Source: Sphaerochaetaceae bacterium (GTDB lineage: Bacteria > Spirochaetota > Spirochaetia > Sphaerochaetales > Sphaerochaetaceae). From it: DNA of 64,000 bases. The notes under the pieces were generated by a model. That model was not told the DNA's origin. It made no database searches and saw only the letters and a list, made by a program, of their open reading frames with translations. Shown in pieces: positions 2,046-10,451 of this stretch; positions within the stretch are counted from its first letter, which is position 1, and the number at the start of each line of letters is the position of its first letter. Location: contig JAKSPE010000002.1 of NCBI GenBank assembly GCA_024405015.1, positions 62,001 to 126,000 of the forward strand, written 5' to 3'. The translations under genes were made by a program, and so were the position numbers.

Positions 2046-2127
2046 TTTACAAATTTGTAAAAAATTTTTGAAAAATAATTGACAATAAAAACAACCTATA
2101 GTACTTTACATATGGGCATTGGAAAAA
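2046..2127 (+). promoter_or_regulatory. Array promoter B
   Basis: Perfect palindrome TTTACAAATTTGTAAA (2046-2061), TTGACA (2079-2084), 17-bp spacer, weak -10 TACTTT (2102-2107), TGGGCATTGGAAAAA (2113-2127). With transcription starting near 2114 the palindrome centre is near -61, the position of a class I activator site. A strong -35 with a poor -10 also suggests dependence on an activator. Confidence 0.75.
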
Positions 2128-2968: not shown

Positions 2969-3595
2969 ATGAAGAAACTCTCAATTGTTCTTTTCATTTT
3001 TATTGCTGCACTTCCATCTGTTTTCGCTGCAACCCTTAGTGAAACCCATGAGATTCGTCTCAAAACACGTATTGGTAGTGAGACTCCTGTTTTTCAGTTT
3101 GAATTTACAAGTGGAATGAGATTCCCGAATTCTGATACCAACATTATTACTAACAAGGGTGAAAATGCTTTTGATGCCAACGTTTCATACAATGAATATG
3201 GAACACAGGAGACAGCAATTGAGGTAGAGGACATTTCCAGAAAAGATTTGGATCTGCTGTTTACCGTCTATCTTGCAAATGAGGCAAAGAGCAATAACAC
3301 ATATACGTTGCGATTGAATGCTGGTGGATTTGCAGTCACAAGGTTTGACGTTCCTGGTACCGTGGAACCAATGGATGTTCTGGTTTCTCCTGCTTCTGAC
3401 ATTGATGCGAGAGTTGGAGTCAGAGTCGGGTCGGTCGTGGATGGTTCTAGTATAGACATGTGTTTTAATGGTGCTGCATGTCGAATTGGTAAGTTGGCAA
3501 CATTTGAAGTGCTATATCAGAGGGATGGTACTATTGATCCTTCATTGTCAGGTTATTTTGCAAACATTACATTGGAGATTTCTTCCAGCAATTAA
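2969..3595 (+). CDS. Small secreted array protein C
   Basis: A 208-residue protein with a signal peptide (MKKLSIVLFIFIAALPSVFA). It is related to B: THEIRLKTRIGSETPVFQFEF, a KDLDLLFTVYLA strand, NTYTLRLNAGGF, and a C-terminal GYFANITLEISSSN. It starts after a strong Shine-Dalgarno (AAGGAGG). Codon choice is more mixed (Arg CGT, CGA, AGA; Thr ACC, ACG, ACT) than in its neighbours, it lacks the shared start element and palindrome, and no hairpin terminator is evident after it. It therefore appears to be a member outside the common control, probably less expressed, or an older copy. Confidence 0.8.
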   Translation: MKKLSIVLFIFIAALPSVFAATLSETHEIRLKTRIGSETPVFQFEFTSGMRFPNSDTNIITNKGENAFDANVSYNEYGTQETAIEVEDISRKDLDLLFTVYLANEAKSNNTYTLRLNAGGFAVTRFDVPGTVEPMDVLVSPASDIDARVGVRVGSVVDGSSIDMCFNGAACRIGKLATFEVLYQRDGTIDPSLSGYFANITLEISSSN

Positions 3596-3660: not shown

Positions 3661-3742
3661 TTTACAAATTTAAAAATAAGTTGTAAAAATTTATTGACAA
3701 TTATAGTCCTTTGGTATAGATTACAGTTGGGCATTGGAAAAA
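3661..3742 (+). promoter_or_regulatory. Array promoter D
   Basis: Left half-site TTTACAAATTT at 3661, again 33 bp before TTGACA (3694-3699); the right half-site is degraded. The -10 is TATAGA (3715-3720) or TAGATT (3717-3722). TGGGCATTGGAAAAA is at 3728-3742. Confidence 0.7.
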
Positions 3743-3763: not shown

Positions 3764-4423
3764 ATGAAGAAAGTTATTACAATTCTTGCAATCATGATGA
3801 TTCTGGTTTCTGCAGTATTCGCAGAAGTAGCAGCTGACGCTCACGGTGCAGCTAACATCAACATCAATGTCAACATTGGTGACGAATTCCCAAGATTCCA
3901 GCTTGCAACAAAGACTGGAACAACAGCAATTGTAAGCGATAATGTCGCAGCAAATGCAGGTACCCCAGCAGAGGCAACACTCACTGATGCAAATAAGGCA
4001 CTTCTTACACAGTCTGGAAAGCAGATTGAGGTTGTTTTCTCCATCAATCAGATCAAGAATGCTCGTTGTTTCGATGCTTACACACTCACTGTAACAGCAA
4101 CAGACCTTGTTCTTGTTAAGTCTACAGATGAGTCTGTAAAGAGAGATCTTGCAACAGCTCTTACAGCAGCAACAGATAAGCAGAAATTTACAGTTGTGTC
4201 AGGAACAGCAACACATACTTCATCAGCTGTCGCAGATATTGACTATACTGGAACAGACGAGGATGCAATCTTAATTGATTATCAGGGTGTTCTTGTTGCA
4301 GCAGAAGATGTAGATTCAAAGAGAGTCGAAATTGGAACAGCATCAGTCAAGTGGAATTCCAACATCGATGCTATGTCTGGTGACTACAAGGCAACAGTAA
4401 CTCTCACAGTTTCAGCTCAGTAA
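3764..4423 (+). CDS. Small secreted array protein D
   Basis: A 219-residue protein with a signal peptide ending SAVFA (MKKVITILAIMMILVSAVFA). The mature protein begins with an HGAANININVNIGDEFPRFQL segment (20-residue core NININVNIGDEFPRFQL). It has the FSINQIKNARCF-AYTLTVTATDLVL block shared with E and F, and ends GDYKATVTLTVSAQ. D, E and F are a subgroup of recent duplicates. The start at 3764 follows AGAGGAAAAAG and gives the signal peptide; an upstream ATG would add a charged extension encoded by the conserved leader. Function is unknown. Confidence 0.85.
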   Translation: MKKVITILAIMMILVSAVFAEVAADAHGAANININVNIGDEFPRFQLATKTGTTAIVSDNVAANAGTPAEATLTDANKALLTQSGKQIEVVFSINQIKNARCFDAYTLTVTATDLVLVKSTDESVKRDLATALTAATDKQKFTVVSGTATHTSSAVADIDYTGTDEDAILIDYQGVLVAAEDVDSKRVEIGTASVKWNSNIDAMSGDYKATVTLTVSAQ

Positions 4424-4447
4424 TAGAAATAATAAATGCAAAATAGA

Positions 4448-4473
4448 GGCGCTTCTTCGGAGGCGTCTTTTTT
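4448..4473 (+). terminator. Terminator after array gene D
   Basis: GGCGCTTC-TTCG-GAGGCGTC with two G-T pairs, followed by TTTTTT. Confidence 0.8.
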
Positions 4474-4479
4474 ATTATG

Positions 4480-4943
4480 CGCCTTTAAGACCGTGAGCCG
4501 GCGAAAGCCGGATCACAAATAAACCACCTGTTCTGCAGGTGTGGTAGGCCGAAGGGCTCTACCCAAAAAAAGCCTTACCTCTGGTAGAATGTGAAGTGTT
4601 CAAGTCCACATAAATACCAAGGAGGTAAGGCGAATGGCAAACAAACGTGACGAACACAGCCACACGAAGTGGCTATGCAAGTATCATATCGTATTCACGC
4701 CGAAATATCGACGCAAAATCATCTACGGATCGCTTCGGGGAGACATAGGGAAGATTCTGAAGGCGCTGTGCCAGTATGGTAGGGCTGAACGCTGAGACGA
4801 TAAGGAAATGCATCAGGAAACAGAAGATTGCTGACGTATTCCTGGACAAGCTGACGAGAGAGAGGAATGACCTCTTTGAGAAGTGGCTTATAACCGATGC
4901 AGTACATACCGCGTCTTTTAGATGTGTTTTTGATTTTTGGTAG
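4480..4943 (+). pseudogene. Decayed IS200/IS605-type element: left end and broken TnpA
   Basis: A coding start at 4634 (after GGAGGT) gives MANKRDEHSHTKW-LCKYHIVFTPKYRRKIIYG, the N-terminus of single-strand HUH (Y1) transposases, with stop at 4793-4795 after 53 residues. In another frame, 4782 onward reads GLNAETIRKCIRKQ, which matches the C-terminal region of the same family, so the middle, including the HUH motif and tyrosine, has been deleted with a frame change. Upstream, 4491-4560 contains subterminal hairpins (CCGGC-GAAA-GCCGG and an ACCACCTG/CAGGTGTGGT stem) typical of IS200 left ends. The element sits between the terminator of D and the promoter of E. Confidence 0.8.
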
Positions 4944-5042: not shown

Positions 5043-5127
5043 TTTACAAATATAGTTTAAAATTTTGAAAAAAATAATTGACAACAACTAGTATTCTACT
5101 GTACTTTATATGTGGGCATTGGAAAAA
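5043..5127 (+). promoter_or_regulatory. Array promoter E
   Basis: Degenerate palindrome TTTACAAATATAGTTT from 5043, TTGACA (5078-5083), TACTTT (5102-5107, 18-bp spacer), TGGGCATTGGAAAAA (5113-5127). Confidence 0.7.
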
Positions 5128-5150: not shown

Positions 5151-5822
5151 ATGAAGAAAGTTATTACAGTTTTCGCAATCATGATGGTTTTGGTTTCAGC
5201 CGTTTTCGCAGCAGAGGCAGCTTCTGATGCTCATGGTACAGCTAAGATTAACATTGACACTCTTATCACAGCACAGTATCCAGCATACCAGCTCGAGGCA
5301 AAGACAGTTAGTGCTGGTGCAATCACTACAGCAACAAGTGACGTCGCAGGTACACCAACTGCAGGTCTTGTTACCATTACAGACGATACCCTGCTTAAAG
5401 CAGATGCAACAGTTACATTCGCAATCAATCAGATTAAGACATCCAAGTGTTTCCACTCATATGATCTTACAGTTACAGCTACAGACCTCATTCTCATGAA
5501 TGCAGGTAAGACAGCTGCTGCTACAAAGACTGATGTTGGAATGGATGATGATGAGTTTGCTGCTGCTGTTAAGTCTTTTGCTGTAAACGATTCAACTCCA
5601 ACAATTACTGCTGCAGACAACATCGCTAGTTTGGCACAGGGTGTTGCTCGGTTCTCTGCTGAAGAAAACAAGCTTACAGCTAAGTATCTTGGTGGTATCA
5701 AGATTGCTGATGGCAAAGTTGAAGAAGTTGGAACATTCTCTTGCACATGGGCAAAGAATGAGCTGGCAATTCCTGGTCCTTATCAGGCAACAGTAACACT
5801 TACAGTTACAACAACTGTCTAA
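5151..5822 (+). CDS. Small secreted array protein E
   Basis: A 223-residue protein, the longest of the array. Signal peptide MKKVITVFAIMMVLVSAVFA is nearly the same as in D. The mature part has AKINIDTLITAQYPAYQLEAK, FAINQIKTSKCFHSYDLTVTATDLIL in two parts as in D (FAINQIKTSKCF, YDLTVTATDLIL), FSCTWAKN, and a C-terminal GPYQATVTLTVTTTV. The start at 5151 is preceded by AAGAGG. It is flanked by two IS200 remnants. It is a close relative of D and F; function unknown. Confidence 0.85.
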   Translation: MKKVITVFAIMMVLVSAVFAAEAASDAHGTAKINIDTLITAQYPAYQLEAKTVSAGAITTATSDVAGTPTAGLVTITDDTLLKADATVTFAINQIKTSKCFHSYDLTVTATDLILMNAGKTAAATKTDVGMDDDEFAAAVKSFAVNDSTPTITAADNIASLAQGVARFSAEENKLTAKYLGGIKIADGKVEEVGTFSCTWAKNELAIPGPYQATVTLTVTTTV

Positions 5823-5846
5823 GTACTTATCAGAGATAAGGGTAGG

Positions 5847-5872
5847 CTGCCGGAGAGATCCGGCAGTTTTTT
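5847..5872 (+). terminator. Terminator after array gene E
   Basis: CTGCCGG-AGAGAT-CCGGCAG followed by TTTTTT. The same hairpin sequence ends array gene F. Confidence 0.9.
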
Positions 5873-5877
5873 GTATA

Positions 5878-6118
5878 AACGAAAACCTCCACATCGTATG
5901 GAGGTTCCGGAGAGCTTTAGCTTTGCCCAAAACAAAAAGAATCTCCATAATCGAAGGTGCGACCCGCCAGTTGCACCGAAGATTAAGGAGATTCCTATGA
6001 ACGAGGAAAGTTTAGCTCATACGAAATGGAATTGCAAATACCACATAGTGTTTGCACCGAAGTACAGACGCCAGATTATTTATTAACGAGATCCTCCAGT
6101 ATGGTGAGAAGAATGTCT
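5878..6118 (+). pseudogene. Second IS200/IS605 TnpA fragment
   Basis: The frame 5997-6086 (after AAGGAG) encodes 29 residues, AHTKWNCKYHIVFAPKYRRQ being the diagnostic part, then stops. A further frame, NEILQYGEKNV, follows. This is the N-terminal tip of a Y1 transposase, distinct in sequence from the fragment at 4634, so it comes from a different element. Upstream, 5882-5908 and 5936-5995 hold inverted repeats (AACCTCCA/TGGAGGTT; AATCTCC/GGAGATT) as expected for a left end. Confidence 0.75.
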
Positions 6119-6148: not shown

Positions 6149-6230
6149 TTTACAAATTTGTAAAAAATATTTGAAAAATAATTGACATCAAAAGCATACT
6201 AGTGTACTTTACACATGGGCATTGGAAAAA
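6149..6230 (+). promoter_or_regulatory. Array promoter F
   Basis: Perfect TTTACAAATTTGTAAA (6149-6164), TTGACA (6182-6187), 17-bp spacer, TACTTT (6205-6210), TGGGCATTGGAAAAA (6216-6230). Spacing is identical to promoter B. Confidence 0.8.
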
Positions 6231-6251: not shown

Positions 6252-6878
6252 ATGAAAAAGATTATTACTATTCTTGCAGTTATGCTTATCGTTGTTTGTG
6301 CTGCATTTGCAGATGCAACAGAACCAAATGGTGATGCAAAGATTCTTGTCAACGCAAAGATTGGTAACCAGTATCCAGCTTTCCAGCTTCAGGCTGTTGG
6401 TGTTGCAGATGCAAAGGGATCTATTTCCGGATCTGCTGATAAAGCTCTCAAGGGAGAGACAAAGGATGCTGTTACTATTACAGAAGATGCTCTTCTTGGA
6501 GGAAACGTAACAGTCAATTTTGCTATCAATCAGGTCAAGATGTCCAGAACAAAGGTCGGATATGTCCTTACTGTTACAGCAACAGACCTTAAAATGGTGA
6601 ATGATGCTTCTGGCGCAGCTTATACAGGTGCAATTGATGCAAATAAGAAGTTCGAGGTTTCTGGAAATCCTACTATCACAAAGGGTACAGCAGGTGAGTA
6701 TACATATACTGAGGCTGCAAATGCTCTTACCGTTAGATACAATGGCAAGAAGGTTGATGCCTCAACAGCTAATGCTGTTCAGCTTGGAACTTTCTCTTGC
6801 GTATGGCAGCAGAATGCTGATGCAGATGCTGGTGACTACCAGGCAACTGTTACACTTACAATTACATCCGCAAGCTGA
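6252..6878 (+). CDS. Small secreted array protein F
   Basis: A 208-residue protein with signal peptide MKKIITILAVMLIVVCAAFA. The mature part has AKILVNAKIGNQYPAFQLQA, FAINQVKMSRTKVGYVLTV, TATDLKMV, FSCVWQQN, and ends GDYQATVTLTITSAS. It belongs to the D/E/F subgroup. AAGAGGAATAAG precedes the ATG. Function unknown; predicted exported beta-rich protein. Confidence 0.85.
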   Translation: MKKIITILAVMLIVVCAAFADATEPNGDAKILVNAKIGNQYPAFQLQAVGVADAKGSISGSADKALKGETKDAVTITEDALLGGNVTVNFAINQVKMSRTKVGYVLTVTATDLKMVNDASGAAYTGAIDANKKFEVSGNPTITKGTAGEYTYTEAANALTVRYNGKKVDASTANAVQLGTFSCVWQQNADADAGDYQATVTLTITSAS

Positions 6879-6904
6879 CAAAAGCTTTAGAGTAAAACAA
6901 GAGA

Positions 6905-6928
6905 CTGCCGGAGAGATCCGGCAGTTTT
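6905..6928 (+). terminator. Terminator after array gene F
   Basis: CTGCCGG-AGAGAT-CCGGCAG followed by TTTTATTTTG. Confidence 0.85.
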
Positions 6929-6975
6929 ATTTTGTCCAAATTTTTGAAATTTTCTTTTTAAAAATTTTCTTTTCG

Positions 6976-7039
6976 ATTTGTAAAAATAATTGACAAAAAG
7001 AAGTGAAATGCTGTAATTTACAACTGGGCATTGGGAAAA
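6976..7039 (+). promoter_or_regulatory. Array promoter G
   Basis: Only a right half-site, GATTTGTAAA, remains and it lies much closer to the -35 than elsewhere. TTGACA (6990-6995), TAATTT (7014-7019), TGGGCATTGGGAAAA (7025-7039). Confidence 0.65.
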
Positions 7040-7060: not shown

Positions 7061-7630
7061 ATGAAGAAAGTTATTTCAATTCTTGCAATTCTTATGGTTA
7101 TCGCATGTGCAGCATTTGCAGCAACTGGAGATTTGCTTAACATCAATGCAAAGGTTCCAGCAACAGATCCTATCTACTCTCTTAAGGGTGGACTTTCAGA
7201 TTCAACCGGTAAAGTAGCAACTGGTACAGCAGCAAATGGAACAATCACAACAGATGTTGATATTTCTACAACTGATATCTACATCTATGTCCAGGTTTTC
7301 CAGACAAATAAGTCAAAGACACTCAAGAGTGGAAGCCTTACTTTGGAAGGAACAGCACTTGAATATCTTACCAGCTCTACAGCCGCTCCAGCTGCTTCAA
7401 ATGCAACAGCCGGTTCAACAGATAAGGCAACTAATCATTATAAGGTTACAGCAGCTGTATCAGGAGCAACAGCAACATTCGCAGTTGAATACGATGGAAA
7501 AAACGTTGCAGAAAACTCTGTAATCGGTTCCGCTCTCTTCAAGTGGACTCACAATGACGAACTTGAGGTTGCTGATGGTGTTGAAAACTTCTACACAGCA
7601 ACAATCACACTTACTTACACAGTACAGTAA
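7061..7630 (+). CDS. Small secreted array protein G
   Basis: A 189-residue protein with signal peptide MKKVISILAILMVIACAAFA. The mature part starts ATGDLLNINAKVPATDPIYS-LKGG, very like protein H (DTLKITAKVPQEKPEFIMKGG in parts). It then has a VYVQVFQTNKSKTLK-type strand, FKWTHNDE, and a C-terminal FYTATITLTYTVQ. G and H form a subgroup. The start at 7061 follows AAGAGGAACG. Function unknown. Confidence 0.85.
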   Translation: MKKVISILAILMVIACAAFAATGDLLNINAKVPATDPIYSLKGGLSDSTGKVATGTAANGTITTDVDISTTDIYIYVQVFQTNKSKTLKSGSLTLEGTALEYLTSSTAAPAASNATAGSTDKATNHYKVTAAVSGATATFAVEYDGKNVAENSVIGSALFKWTHNDELEVADGVENFYTATITLTYTVQ

Positions 7631-7651: not shown

Positions 7652-7681
7652 GAGGCTACCTTCGGGTAGCTTCTTTTTTTT
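7652..7681 (+). terminator. Terminator after array gene G
   Basis: GAGGCTACC-TTCG-GGTAGCTTC followed by seven or more T. Confidence 0.9.
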
Positions 7682-7799: not shown

Positions 7800-7880
7800 T
7801 TTTCAAATTTGTAAAAATAATTTTAAAAAATAATTGACGAAAAAATTTTATCTAACTATACTGTCATTGTTGGAAATGGA
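7800..7880 (+). promoter_or_regulatory. Array promoter H
   Basis: Near-palindrome TTTTCAAATTTGTAAA (7800-7815), 34 bp before TTGACG (7834-7839); 17-bp spacer; good -10 TATACT (7857-7862). The start element is degenerate (GTCATTGTTGGAAAT). From 7682 to 7800 nothing else is recognisable. Confidence 0.7.
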
Positions 7881-7901: not shown

Positions 7902-8453
7902 ATGAAGAAACTTCTTATGGTTCTGACATTCGTATTGATGACTCTTGCAGCTTGTGTAGCACTTGAAGGTGATACACTCAAGATCACTGCAAAGGTTCCT
8001 CAGGAGAAGCCGGAATTCATCATGAAGGGAGGTTTCACTTCAGCTGATGCTACAACAGTTGCTACACAGGCTGGTGCACTTCTTGCTTCCAACAAGGACA
8101 TCTCAGCAGAAAGCATCACAGTCTTTGTAAAGCTTTTCCAGAGCAACAAGGCTAAGTACAAGAACACATTTACTCTCACAGTCACAGCATCTGACATGTC
8201 TATGACTGATGCAAACGGAACCTATTCCACAACTGCAACAGCCCTTACAACAACAAAGATCACAACAACAAATCTTGAAGTCACAGGTTCTGCTGAAGCT
8301 AACGTCGCAAGTTTTGCAATGAACTACACAAACGGCAAGCCGGTTTCTGAGAACACAGCAATTGGCGAAGCATCCTTCACCTGGGAAGCAAACGAAGGTC
8401 TTCCAGTTGGAGACTATAGTGCAACTATTACATTGGGCTACACAGCACCATGA
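7902..8453 (+). CDS. Small secreted array protein H
   Basis: A 183-residue protein, the shortest and last of the array. Signal peptide is MKKLLMVLTFVLMTLAACVA (cut near ALEGD). It shares with G the N-terminal LKITAKVPQEKPEFIMKGG, a VFVKLFQSNKAKYKN block, FTLTVTASDMSM, FTWEANE and a C-terminal GDYSATITLGYTAP. No strong Shine-Dalgarno is visible (AAAGGTATATTCAG). Function unknown. Confidence 0.8.
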   Translation: MKKLLMVLTFVLMTLAACVALEGDTLKITAKVPQEKPEFIMKGGFTSADATTVATQAGALLASNKDISAESITVFVKLFQSNKAKYKNTFTLTVTASDMSMTDANGTYSTTATALTTTKITTTNLEVTGSAEANVASFAMNYTNGKPVSENTAIGEASFTWEANEGLPVGDYSATITLGYTAP

Positions 8454-8481: not shown

Positions 8482-8508
8482 GCTGGTCGAAAGGCCAGCT
8501 CTTTTTTT
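8482..8508 (+). terminator. Terminator after array gene H
   Basis: GCTGGTC-GAAA-GGCCAGC, then CTCTTTTTTT. Confidence 0.85.
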
Positions 8509-8594: not shown

Positions 8595-10451
8595 ATGGAA
8601 AGAAAACAGTTCAAGACTGAAGTATCTGAACTTCTTCACCTTATCATTCATTCACTTTACTCACACAAGGAAATCTTTCTTCGCGAGCTCGTATCCAATG
8701 CATCCGATGCTTTGGACAAACTGAAATACAAGACTCTCGTCGACGGCAAATCACCAGAAGGCGAGCTTCGCATCGACATCAGCTTCACAGAGGGTAAGGA
8801 ACGAACCCTCACCATTTCCGATAACGGAATTGGAATGACCCATGACGAGCTGAACGAGAACCTGGGAACCATCGCAAGATCCGGAACTAAGCATTTCATC
8901 CAGAACCTCTCCGAGGACCAGAAGAAGGACAGCAACCTCATTGGTCAGTTCGGTGTCGGTTTCTATTCTGCCTACATGGTTGCCGACAAGGTTGAAGTCA
9001 CTTCCCGTGCCTACGGAAGCGAAGAGGCCTACAAGTGGACCAGTGACGGTAAGGAGAAGTACACCATCGAAGAGGCAACTCGTGACACCTGCGGAACCAC
9101 CATCGTCGTTTACCTGAACGAGGAAGGCAAGGAGTATGCAAACCGCTGGCAGATCGAAAACCTCATCAAGCAGTACAGCGACCACATTGCTTACCCAATT
9201 TTCCTGTCCTATGACCAGAACACCTACGATGACAAGTACAACGTCACCGGTACCGAGCACAAGGTCGAGCAGATCAACAGCGCAGCAGCACTGTGGAGAA
9301 GAAGCAAGAGCGAGCTCAAGGAAGAGGACTACAACGACTTTTACAAGAACACCTGCTACGACGAGGAGAACCCACTGTTCTACATCCATACAAAGGCAGA
9401 GGGTGCTACCGAGTACACAACACTGTTCTTCGTTCCAGCCAAGGCTCCGTTTGACATGTATCATGCCGACTACAAGCCAGGTGTGAAGCTCTACGTCAAG
9501 AGAGTCTACATCACTGACGATGAGAAGGAGCTTCTTCCAACCTACCTGCGCTTTGTCCGTGGTGTCATCGATAGTGAGGACCTGCCTCTGAACGTCTCCC
9601 GTGAGATTCTTCAGCAGAACAAGGTCATGACCACCATCCGAAACGCATCCGTGAAGAAGATTCTCGGTGAGTTCAAGAAGATCAGCGAGCAGAACCCTGA
9701 GCTTTACACAAAGTTCATTGAGCAGTTCAACCGCCCACTGAAGGAAGGTCTTTACCAGGATTATGCTAACCGTGATGAGCTTTTGGGTCTGGTTCGCTTC
9801 AAGAGCACAGCCGTGGAAGGCTACACCTCTCTTGCTGCCTACAAGGAGCGAATGATCGCTGACCAGAAGAGCATCTACTACATCACAGGTTCCGATGAGA
9901 GCGCTCTTCGCAACTCCCCACTTCTTGCTTCCTACAAGGAGAAGGGTATTGAAGTGCTTCTCATGACCGATGACATTGATGATATCGTCATCTCCTCTGT
10001 CGGTAAGTTCCAGGACATTGCACTGAAGGCTGTGAACAAGAGCGGTGCCATGGATGACTTCATGACCGAGGACGAGAAGAAGCAGGTCAAGGAGCAGGGT
10101 TCTGAAATCACCGAAAAGCTCAAGAAGGCTCTTGGAGACAAGGTCAAGGATGTTATCGTCTCCACAAGACTTGCCGATGTCTCTGCCGTTGTCGTCTCCG
10201 ACGAGAACGACCCATCGGTTCAGATGCAGCAGGTTCTCAAGGCTATGGGACAGGGTGCCTACGAGGCAACTGCTCCAATTCTTGAGGTCAATGCCAACGA
10301 CTCCTTCGTCAAGAAGATCGTTGCATCAGACGATGAAGAGTATGTGGCAAACGCAGCTAGCGTTCTTCTGGATCAGGCACTGCTTTCTGAGGGCGTAATG
10401 CCAAAGAACCCAGCTGAGTTTGCTAGAAAGCTTCACGCACTTCTCGGCTGA
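8595..10451 (+). CDS. htpG: Hsp90-family chaperone HtpG
   Basis: A cytosolic ATP-driven chaperone of 618 residues, the usual length for HtpG. The N-terminal GHKL ATPase shows the canonical boxes: ELVSNASDALDKLKY (about residue 30), SDNGIGMTHDEL (about 75) and GQFGVGFYSAYMVADKVEV in the lid/ATP region (about 117). The middle domain has FVRGVIDSEDLPLNVSREIL (about 320), and the last 110 residues fit the dimerisation domain. A Shine-Dalgarno GGAGGG precedes the ATG. Codon use is standard for the chromosome, unlike the ACA-rich array upstream. It is monocistronic with its own terminator. Confidence 0.98.
   Translation: MERKQFKTEVSELLHLIIHSLYSHKEIFLRELVSNASDALDKLKYKTLVDGKSPEGELRIDISFTEGKERTLTISDNGIGMTHDELNENLGTIARSGTKHFIQNLSEDQKKDSNLIGQFGVGFYSAYMVADKVEVTSRAYGSEEAYKWTSDGKEKYTIEEATRDTCGTTIVVYLNEEGKEYANRWQIENLIKQYSDHIAYPIFLSYDQNTYDDKYNVTGTEHKVEQINSAAALWRRSKSELKEEDYNDFYKNTCYDEENPLFYIHTKAEGATEYTTLFFVPAKAPFDMYHADYKPGVKLYVKRVYITDDEKELLPTYLRFVRGVIDSEDLPLNVSREILQQNKVMTTIRNASVKKILGEFKKISEQNPELYTKFIEQFNRPLKEGLYQDYANRDELLGLVRFKSTAVEGYTSLAAYKERMIADQKSIYYITGSDESALRNSPLLASYKEKGIEVLLMTDDIDDIVISSVGKFQDIALKAVNKSGAMDDFMTEDEKKQVKEQGSEITEKLKKALGDKVKDVIVSTRLADVSAVVVSDENDPSVQMQQVLKAMGQGAYEATAPILEVNANDSFVKKIVASDDEEYVANAASVLLDQALLSEGVMPKNPAEFARKLHALLG

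Follow-up and report, generated by a model that had tools for sequence, protein, structure and literature searches.

The window, the whole stretch of 64,000 nucleotides that was analysed, belongs to a genome (G000) of 48 contigs and 2.03 Mb that is approximately 85% complete. In it we detected an array of eight genes, A to H, encoding secreted proteins of 183 to 223 aa. All coordinates are window positions unless a contig or locus is named, and the window genes and promoter boxes lie on the forward strand. The array is located between a ROK/NagC-like regulator (89-1195), which is syntenic within the genus, and htpG (8595-10451). It consists of gene A (1341-1922), a signal-peptide protein of 193 aa, followed by B (2154-2783; 209 aa), C (2969-3595; 208 aa), D (3764-4423; 219 aa), E (5151-5822; 223 aa), F (6252-6878; 208 aa), G (7061-7630; 189 aa) and H (7902-8453; 183 aa). 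Seven of the eight genes have their own terminator (1943-1972 for A, 2807-2830 for B, 4445-4470 for D, 5844-5869 for E, 6901-6928 for F, 7652-7673 for G and 8482-8499 for H), the exception being C, and most are therefore single transcription units. The terminators of E and F have the same stem, CTGCCGGAGAGATCCGGCAG, which is a trace of duplication. Degenerate IS200/IS605-like fragments (MANKRDEHSHTKWLCKYHIVFTPKYRR... type) were found between D and E (4500-4930) and between E and F (5880-6110). The second fragment overlaps an Rfam match to the IS-associated STnc490 (5884-5989, below the gathering score), and a further weak Rfam match lies at 6882-6965.

The order ROK regulator, secreted-protein genes and htpG was also seen in other species of the genus, the array often being interrupted by contig ends, and in one genome of another genus the ROK gene and htpG are directly adjacent. 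Relatives of the array proteins were identified by profile search in all 11 genus genomes. The predicted structure of the gene F protein is a beta-sandwich (18 sequences, mean pLDDT 74). It showed no match by sequence in PDB, and the fold search returned a weak likeness to chaperone-usher pilins, for example CfaB and FimG (E ~1e-3, TM ~0.3). Judging from this model, the array proteins may be surface or pilus-like proteins. In G006 (C40; L164:989-6412), several consecutive signal-peptide genes (products of 197-414 aa) come after two array-family genes and may form a cluster for secretion or assembly. There is also a shorter related family of secreted proteins (162-165 aa; L082 rc 2721, L104, L117 and L068:3489); upstream, its members conserve another segment, around TGTAAGGAAAAAC, and lack TTGACA.

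Core promoters and the predicted transcription start

Upstream of gene B, the -35 box TTGACA (2079-2084) is followed after a 17-bp spacer by a weak -10 box, TACTTT (2102-2107). We also located the -35 and -10 boxes of A (TTGACT and TATAAC, 1257-1285), D (TTGACA and TAGATT, 3694-3722), E (TTGACA and TACTTT with an 18-bp spacer, 5078-5107), F (TTGACA and TACTTT, 6182-6210) and G (TTGACA and TAATTT with an 18-bp spacer, 6990-7019). A preliminary description had proposed one promoter type common to the array members, which is supported here. The poor -10 box TACTTT that it ascribed to this promoter is present in B, E and F but not in A, whose -10 box is TATAAC.

The sequence TGGGCATTGG occurs exactly at 1292, 2113, 3728, 5113, 6216 and 7025, that is, in A, B, D, E, F and G, at distances of 35, 34, 34, 35, 34 and 35 bp, respectively, from the first T of the -35 box. 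All positions given in the preliminary description, which had placed the element 34-35 bp past the start of the -35 box in six members, were reproduced. These six copies on the forward strand compare with 0.09 expected from dinucleotide shuffles. Together with the A-run behind it, TGGGCATTGG is found within the 2.03-Mb genome only in the array. The start-site element as a whole spans 1292-1306 in A and 2113-2127 in B (TGGGCATTGGAAAAA in both), 3728-3742 in D, 5113-5127 in E, 6216-6230 in F and 7025-7039 in G (TGGGCATTGGGAAAA). Among the eight array promoters inspected, those of C and H lack it, so the element is dispensable for some family members.

We aligned 16 promoters from eight species: six in the window (A, B, D, E, F and G) plus ten more. 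Their -10 pattern is TAcnTT (TA in 16/16, T at position 5 in 13/16) and their spacers measure 16, 17 or 18 bp. The gap between the -10 box and TGGG is 5 nt in 13 of the 16 promoters, which places the first G 7 nt past the -10 box in these 13. Seven bases past the -10 box is the usual place of +1. As TGGG moves with the -10 box when the spacer varies, its first G is very probably +1, corresponding to the G at 2114 in gene B. The predicted transcripts start at GGGCAUUGG, consistent with the previous suggestion that the mRNAs begin with the element, whose position follows the -10 box and not the -35 box. A second promoter that would use CATA/TATATT behind TGGG as its -10 box was rejected, because it would place the 5' ends of the D and E transcripts within or beyond the ribosome-binding site.

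The GGG columns of the alignment hold 1.8-2.4 bits, above every -35 or -10 position, in a set of 16 promoters that is not independent (six come from one genome) and was aligned using a -35/TGG anchor chosen by eye. As a control, we used 30 promoters of the form TTGACA-N16-18-TATAAT from the same genomes. GGG was found near the start in one of these 30 (Fisher test of the array set against controls, ~7e-9, with a rounded count of 14/16).

Upstream of the relatives in sister species the arrangement is the same. Their start elements include TGGGCATTGAAAAACATA (G005), TGGGCATTAAAACATAA (G009), TGGGCATAAAAACATAA (G002), TGGGCATTAAAAAAACATA (G007), TGGGTATTAAAGACATT (G006) and TGGCATTGAAAAAAATAAATT (G003), and a family member outside the array (G005:C49, L120) carries TGGGTAAAACATT. 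The predicted first transcribed bases, already noted as conserved within the array, are kept across species and at a gene outside the array, with conservation extending to about +17. Within the window, the 10-mer has an identity of 1.00 versus 0.38-0.47 at positions -30 to -1, and identity among the array genes is 0.34 beyond +20, 0.66 in the first 20 codons and 0.31 in codons 21-60. Since the 10-mer is invariant while the neighbouring sequence diverges, these comparisons argue for selection and against recent duplication, and they support the view that the first transcribed bases are under selection. The original observation is real and stronger than was stated at the time.

A broad scan with TTGAC-N-TGGGNA was unspecific, most matches resembling coding sequence, and was dropped. 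A spread of the start motif through the family was likewise rejected, as the matches outside the genus lacked promoter context. In L203 and L204 (near 1246-1295), which are orthologues in G007 and G001, the expected start of a TTGAC promoter carries TTGGGAAAAC or GTGGGAAAAC; this may be another GGG-start promoter, outside the family.

The predicted UP element and the upstream palindrome

The segment between the palindrome and the -35 box, overlooked in the preliminary description, is by its sequence a near-perfect UP element. We scored it at 14 positions as NNAAAWWTWTTTTNNNAAANNN, the E. coli consensus (PMC5664571), which may not be that of this organism. On this E. coli scale, gene A matches at 14/14 positions (1235-1256), gene B, whose full UP element GTAAAAAATTTTTGAAAAATAA adjoins the -35 box (2057-2078), at 13/14, F (6160-6181) and D at 12/14, and most sister promoters at 12-13/14. 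The block lies directly at the -35 box or at most 2 bp away. The mean score against this E. coli consensus was 11.7, compared with 9.2 in shuffles of the same bases. None of the 30 control promoters scored at least 12 (control mean 7.2; Fisher test of array against controls ~5e-8, with a rounded count of 12/16). In G (8/14), E and a few sister promoters the match is not above that of shuffled sequence, and the low score of G007b is an artefact of a misplaced anchor. In its A-tract/T-tract/A-tract block just before the -35 box, which in most copies agrees with the consensus at 12-14 of 14 positions, the array promoter resembles UP-element promoters of the rrnB P1 type (Estrem et al. 1998; PMC5664571). 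The array promoters differ from these in their weak TAcnTT -10 box, in the conserved transcribed GGGCATT element and in serving secreted-protein genes instead of rRNA.

The palindrome is most complete in B, where the 16-bp TTTACAAATTTGTAAA (2046-2061) is perfect to 18 bp, and in F, where the exact copy (6149-6164) is perfect to 22 bp; TTTACAAATTTGTAAA occurs at no other place in the genome. With the first G taken as +1, its centre is at -60.5 in both genes, and 5 bp of it fall within the outer edge of the UP element. Gene A has a 15-bp form, TTTACAATTTGTAAA (1224-1238), gene D an intact left half with a changed right half (3661-3676), and gene H a version with one mismatch (7800-7815) in front of a promoter without the start element. 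Gene E retains just the left half (TTTACAAAT at 5043), 35 bp upstream of the -35 box. The promoter of G lacks the palindrome, and that of C lacks both palindrome and start element. We reproduced the spacing reported earlier, with the palindrome starting 33 bp before the -35 box in A, B, D (left half) and F and 34 bp before it in H; the range is 33-35 bp in all carriers, including those of G005 and G006. Matches within one mismatch were found in three of the eight upstream regions, versus a shuffle mean of 0.0005 and a maximum of 1 in 2,000 trials.

Across the 11 genus genomes, the palindrome with at most one mismatch is confined to five array promoters, and the reversed-palindrome control had no match in these genomes. 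The carriers represent three species, namely the window species, G005 and G006, and most homologous promoters lack it. These other promoters keep the UP element, the -35 box and the start element, and the palindrome is thus an addition to the basic promoter. In the genome-wide motif search, both the palindrome and the start element with its A-run were array-specific and therefore not spread at random through the genome. Among 139 family genomes we found one further exact TTTACAAATTTGTAAA (L216:1501-1516 in G034), immediately preceding the toxin-antitoxin genes brnT/brnA. Antitoxins of the brnT/brnA type are autorepressors. This copy may hint at a binder of the ribbon-helix-helix type, or may be due to chance.

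The neighbouring ROK regulator was considered as the palindrome-binding protein and rejected. Its recognition helix (LNKVSTGEIVD) is kept in G002, G007, G009 and others, where the palindrome (at most one mismatch) is absent, and is invariant also where the array does not adjoin the ROK gene. Binding of the palindrome by this protein therefore appears unlikely. The sole cNMP-domain protein of the window genome (G000:C15:14300-14563, L205) is a stand-alone binding domain of 152 aa that lacks a helix-turn-helix (HTH), and similar proteins are present in several genus genomes.

Alternative readings of the two elements

The preliminary description had interpreted the palindrome as a site for class I activation. 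On this reading, a dimeric activator bound at -61 would touch one alpha C-terminal domain and offset the weak -10 box. The centre at -60.5 agrees with the geometry of class I CRP-type promoters, the distance to the -35 box is held at 33-35 bp in every carrier, including G005 and G006, the palindrome is exclusive to array promoters, and the -10 box is weak. However, a full UP element and a consensus -35 box mean that strong polymerase recruitment need not require an activator. Most homologous promoters lack the palindrome, which is unlike the CRP site TGTGA-N6-TCACA, and the carriers G000, G005 and G006 (MAGs that are 80-86% complete) yielded no CRP/FNR-type protein containing an HTH. The cNMP-domain proteins detected there are of a short, HTH-less type in G000 and G005, and G006 has none. 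Class I activation as originally stated is thus not supported, and we regard it as unlikely. Given that no such CRP/FNR protein was detected in the carriers, an activator and a repressor or modulator are equally likely. A repressor operator, at which the bound protein would cover the outer UP subsite and possibly loop between array operators, is a possible but still doubtful reading. It would agree with the 5-bp overlap of palindrome and UP element in B and F, with the repetition of operators along one locus, and with the sole exact copy elsewhere in the 139 family genomes preceding a brnT/brnA pair. That single copy may be chance, and the recognition helix of the adjacent ROK protein is invariant even where the palindrome is absent and where the ROK gene has no array next to it.

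For the start element, the possibility that it acts only in the mRNA, as a pairing site for a small RNA or a site for an RNA-binding protein, can be entertained tentatively. The conservation to about +17 exceeds the needs of start-site choice, the start codon lies anywhere between 32 and 59 nt away, and the A-rich leaders, when compared, had no common hairpin that would hide the tag. No leader had an Rfam match, and a leader hairpin or riboswitch was therefore rejected. On the other side, Hfq was missing in all 11 genus genomes, in which the positive controls were detected, and our search for perfect complements of the element found none conserved elsewhere in the genomes. A small RNA with a perfect complement was rejected, as the non-array matches examined lay in coding sequence or were not kept between species. 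The strict position of GGG at the start site also suits a role in transcription. A further alternative is reiterative initiation sensitive to CTP, known from pyrG of B. subtilis, where Gs added at the start prevent attenuation in pyrimidine starvation (PMC4448216). The array promoters resemble pyrG in that most predicted transcripts start with GGGC, at which G stuttering would occur at low CTP, but the short leaders have no attenuator, several sister promoters have GGGU and the array genes have no visible pyrimidine link, making this mechanism very unlikely. We consider it highly improbable that recent tandem duplication or gene conversion accounts for the similarity of the promoters. The tandem arrangement, the similar first 20 codons and the common terminator stem of E and F would agree with it, but it is contradicted by the low identity just upstream and beyond +20 around an invariant 10-mer, and by the retention of the element between species and outside the array.

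A proposed family-specific promoter with a conserved transcript 5' end

We favour, with a probability of roughly 0.55, a UP-element promoter specific to this gene family that has a GGG start, a 5' end conserved for initial transcription or as an mRNA tag, and the palindrome as a clade-specific operator. Each element-bearing gene would have its own copy of this one specialised promoter. The UP element abutting the consensus -35 box would hold the C-terminal domains of the RNA-polymerase alpha subunits, giving strong recruitment. The -10 box would be kept weak (TAcnTT), and open-complex stability or escape would then be the likely limiting step. Transcription would begin at the conserved GGG, producing an mRNA 5' end of GGG(C/U)AUU(G/A)AAAA, and the first bases may fix the start point and make initiation GTP-dependent. 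In B. subtilis, the GTP level influences promoters that start with G and whose open complexes are short-lived (PMC7824091). The array promoters would share with the GTP-initiated rRNA promoters of B. subtilis (PMC7824091) a G start and a sensitivity to the starting nucleotide, and differ from these in their conservation to about +17 and in the type of gene. By analogy, the combination of UP element, weak -10 box and GGG start would fit the GTP-responsive pattern.

GTP dependence would leave CATT and the A-run beyond +3 unexplained, which leaves room for a role at the mRNA level. The whole tag of 12-17 nt probably also has a function in the mRNA, be it in stability, in translation or as the target of an RNA or protein acting in trans. 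A bolder version, which we put forward tentatively, is that a 5'-terminal mRNA tag of ~15 nt within the promoter controls the whole secreted-protein family through an Hfq-independent trans-acting RNA or protein, and has persisted as protein identity fell to 20-40%. Within the clade that contains the window species, the palindrome at -60.5 would be an added operator, from which a regulator may help or block binding of the alpha subunits.

Promoters whose first transcribed bases are the best-kept part across many genes and species are unusual. The same start signal at the same place in related species points to a dedicated control step. If the start element works as proposed, it would offer a compact means of controlling a diverging secreted-protein family jointly, with no coding sequence in common. 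It would also make this uncultured bacterial lineage a ready test case for RNA control without Hfq and for the effects of start-site sequence.
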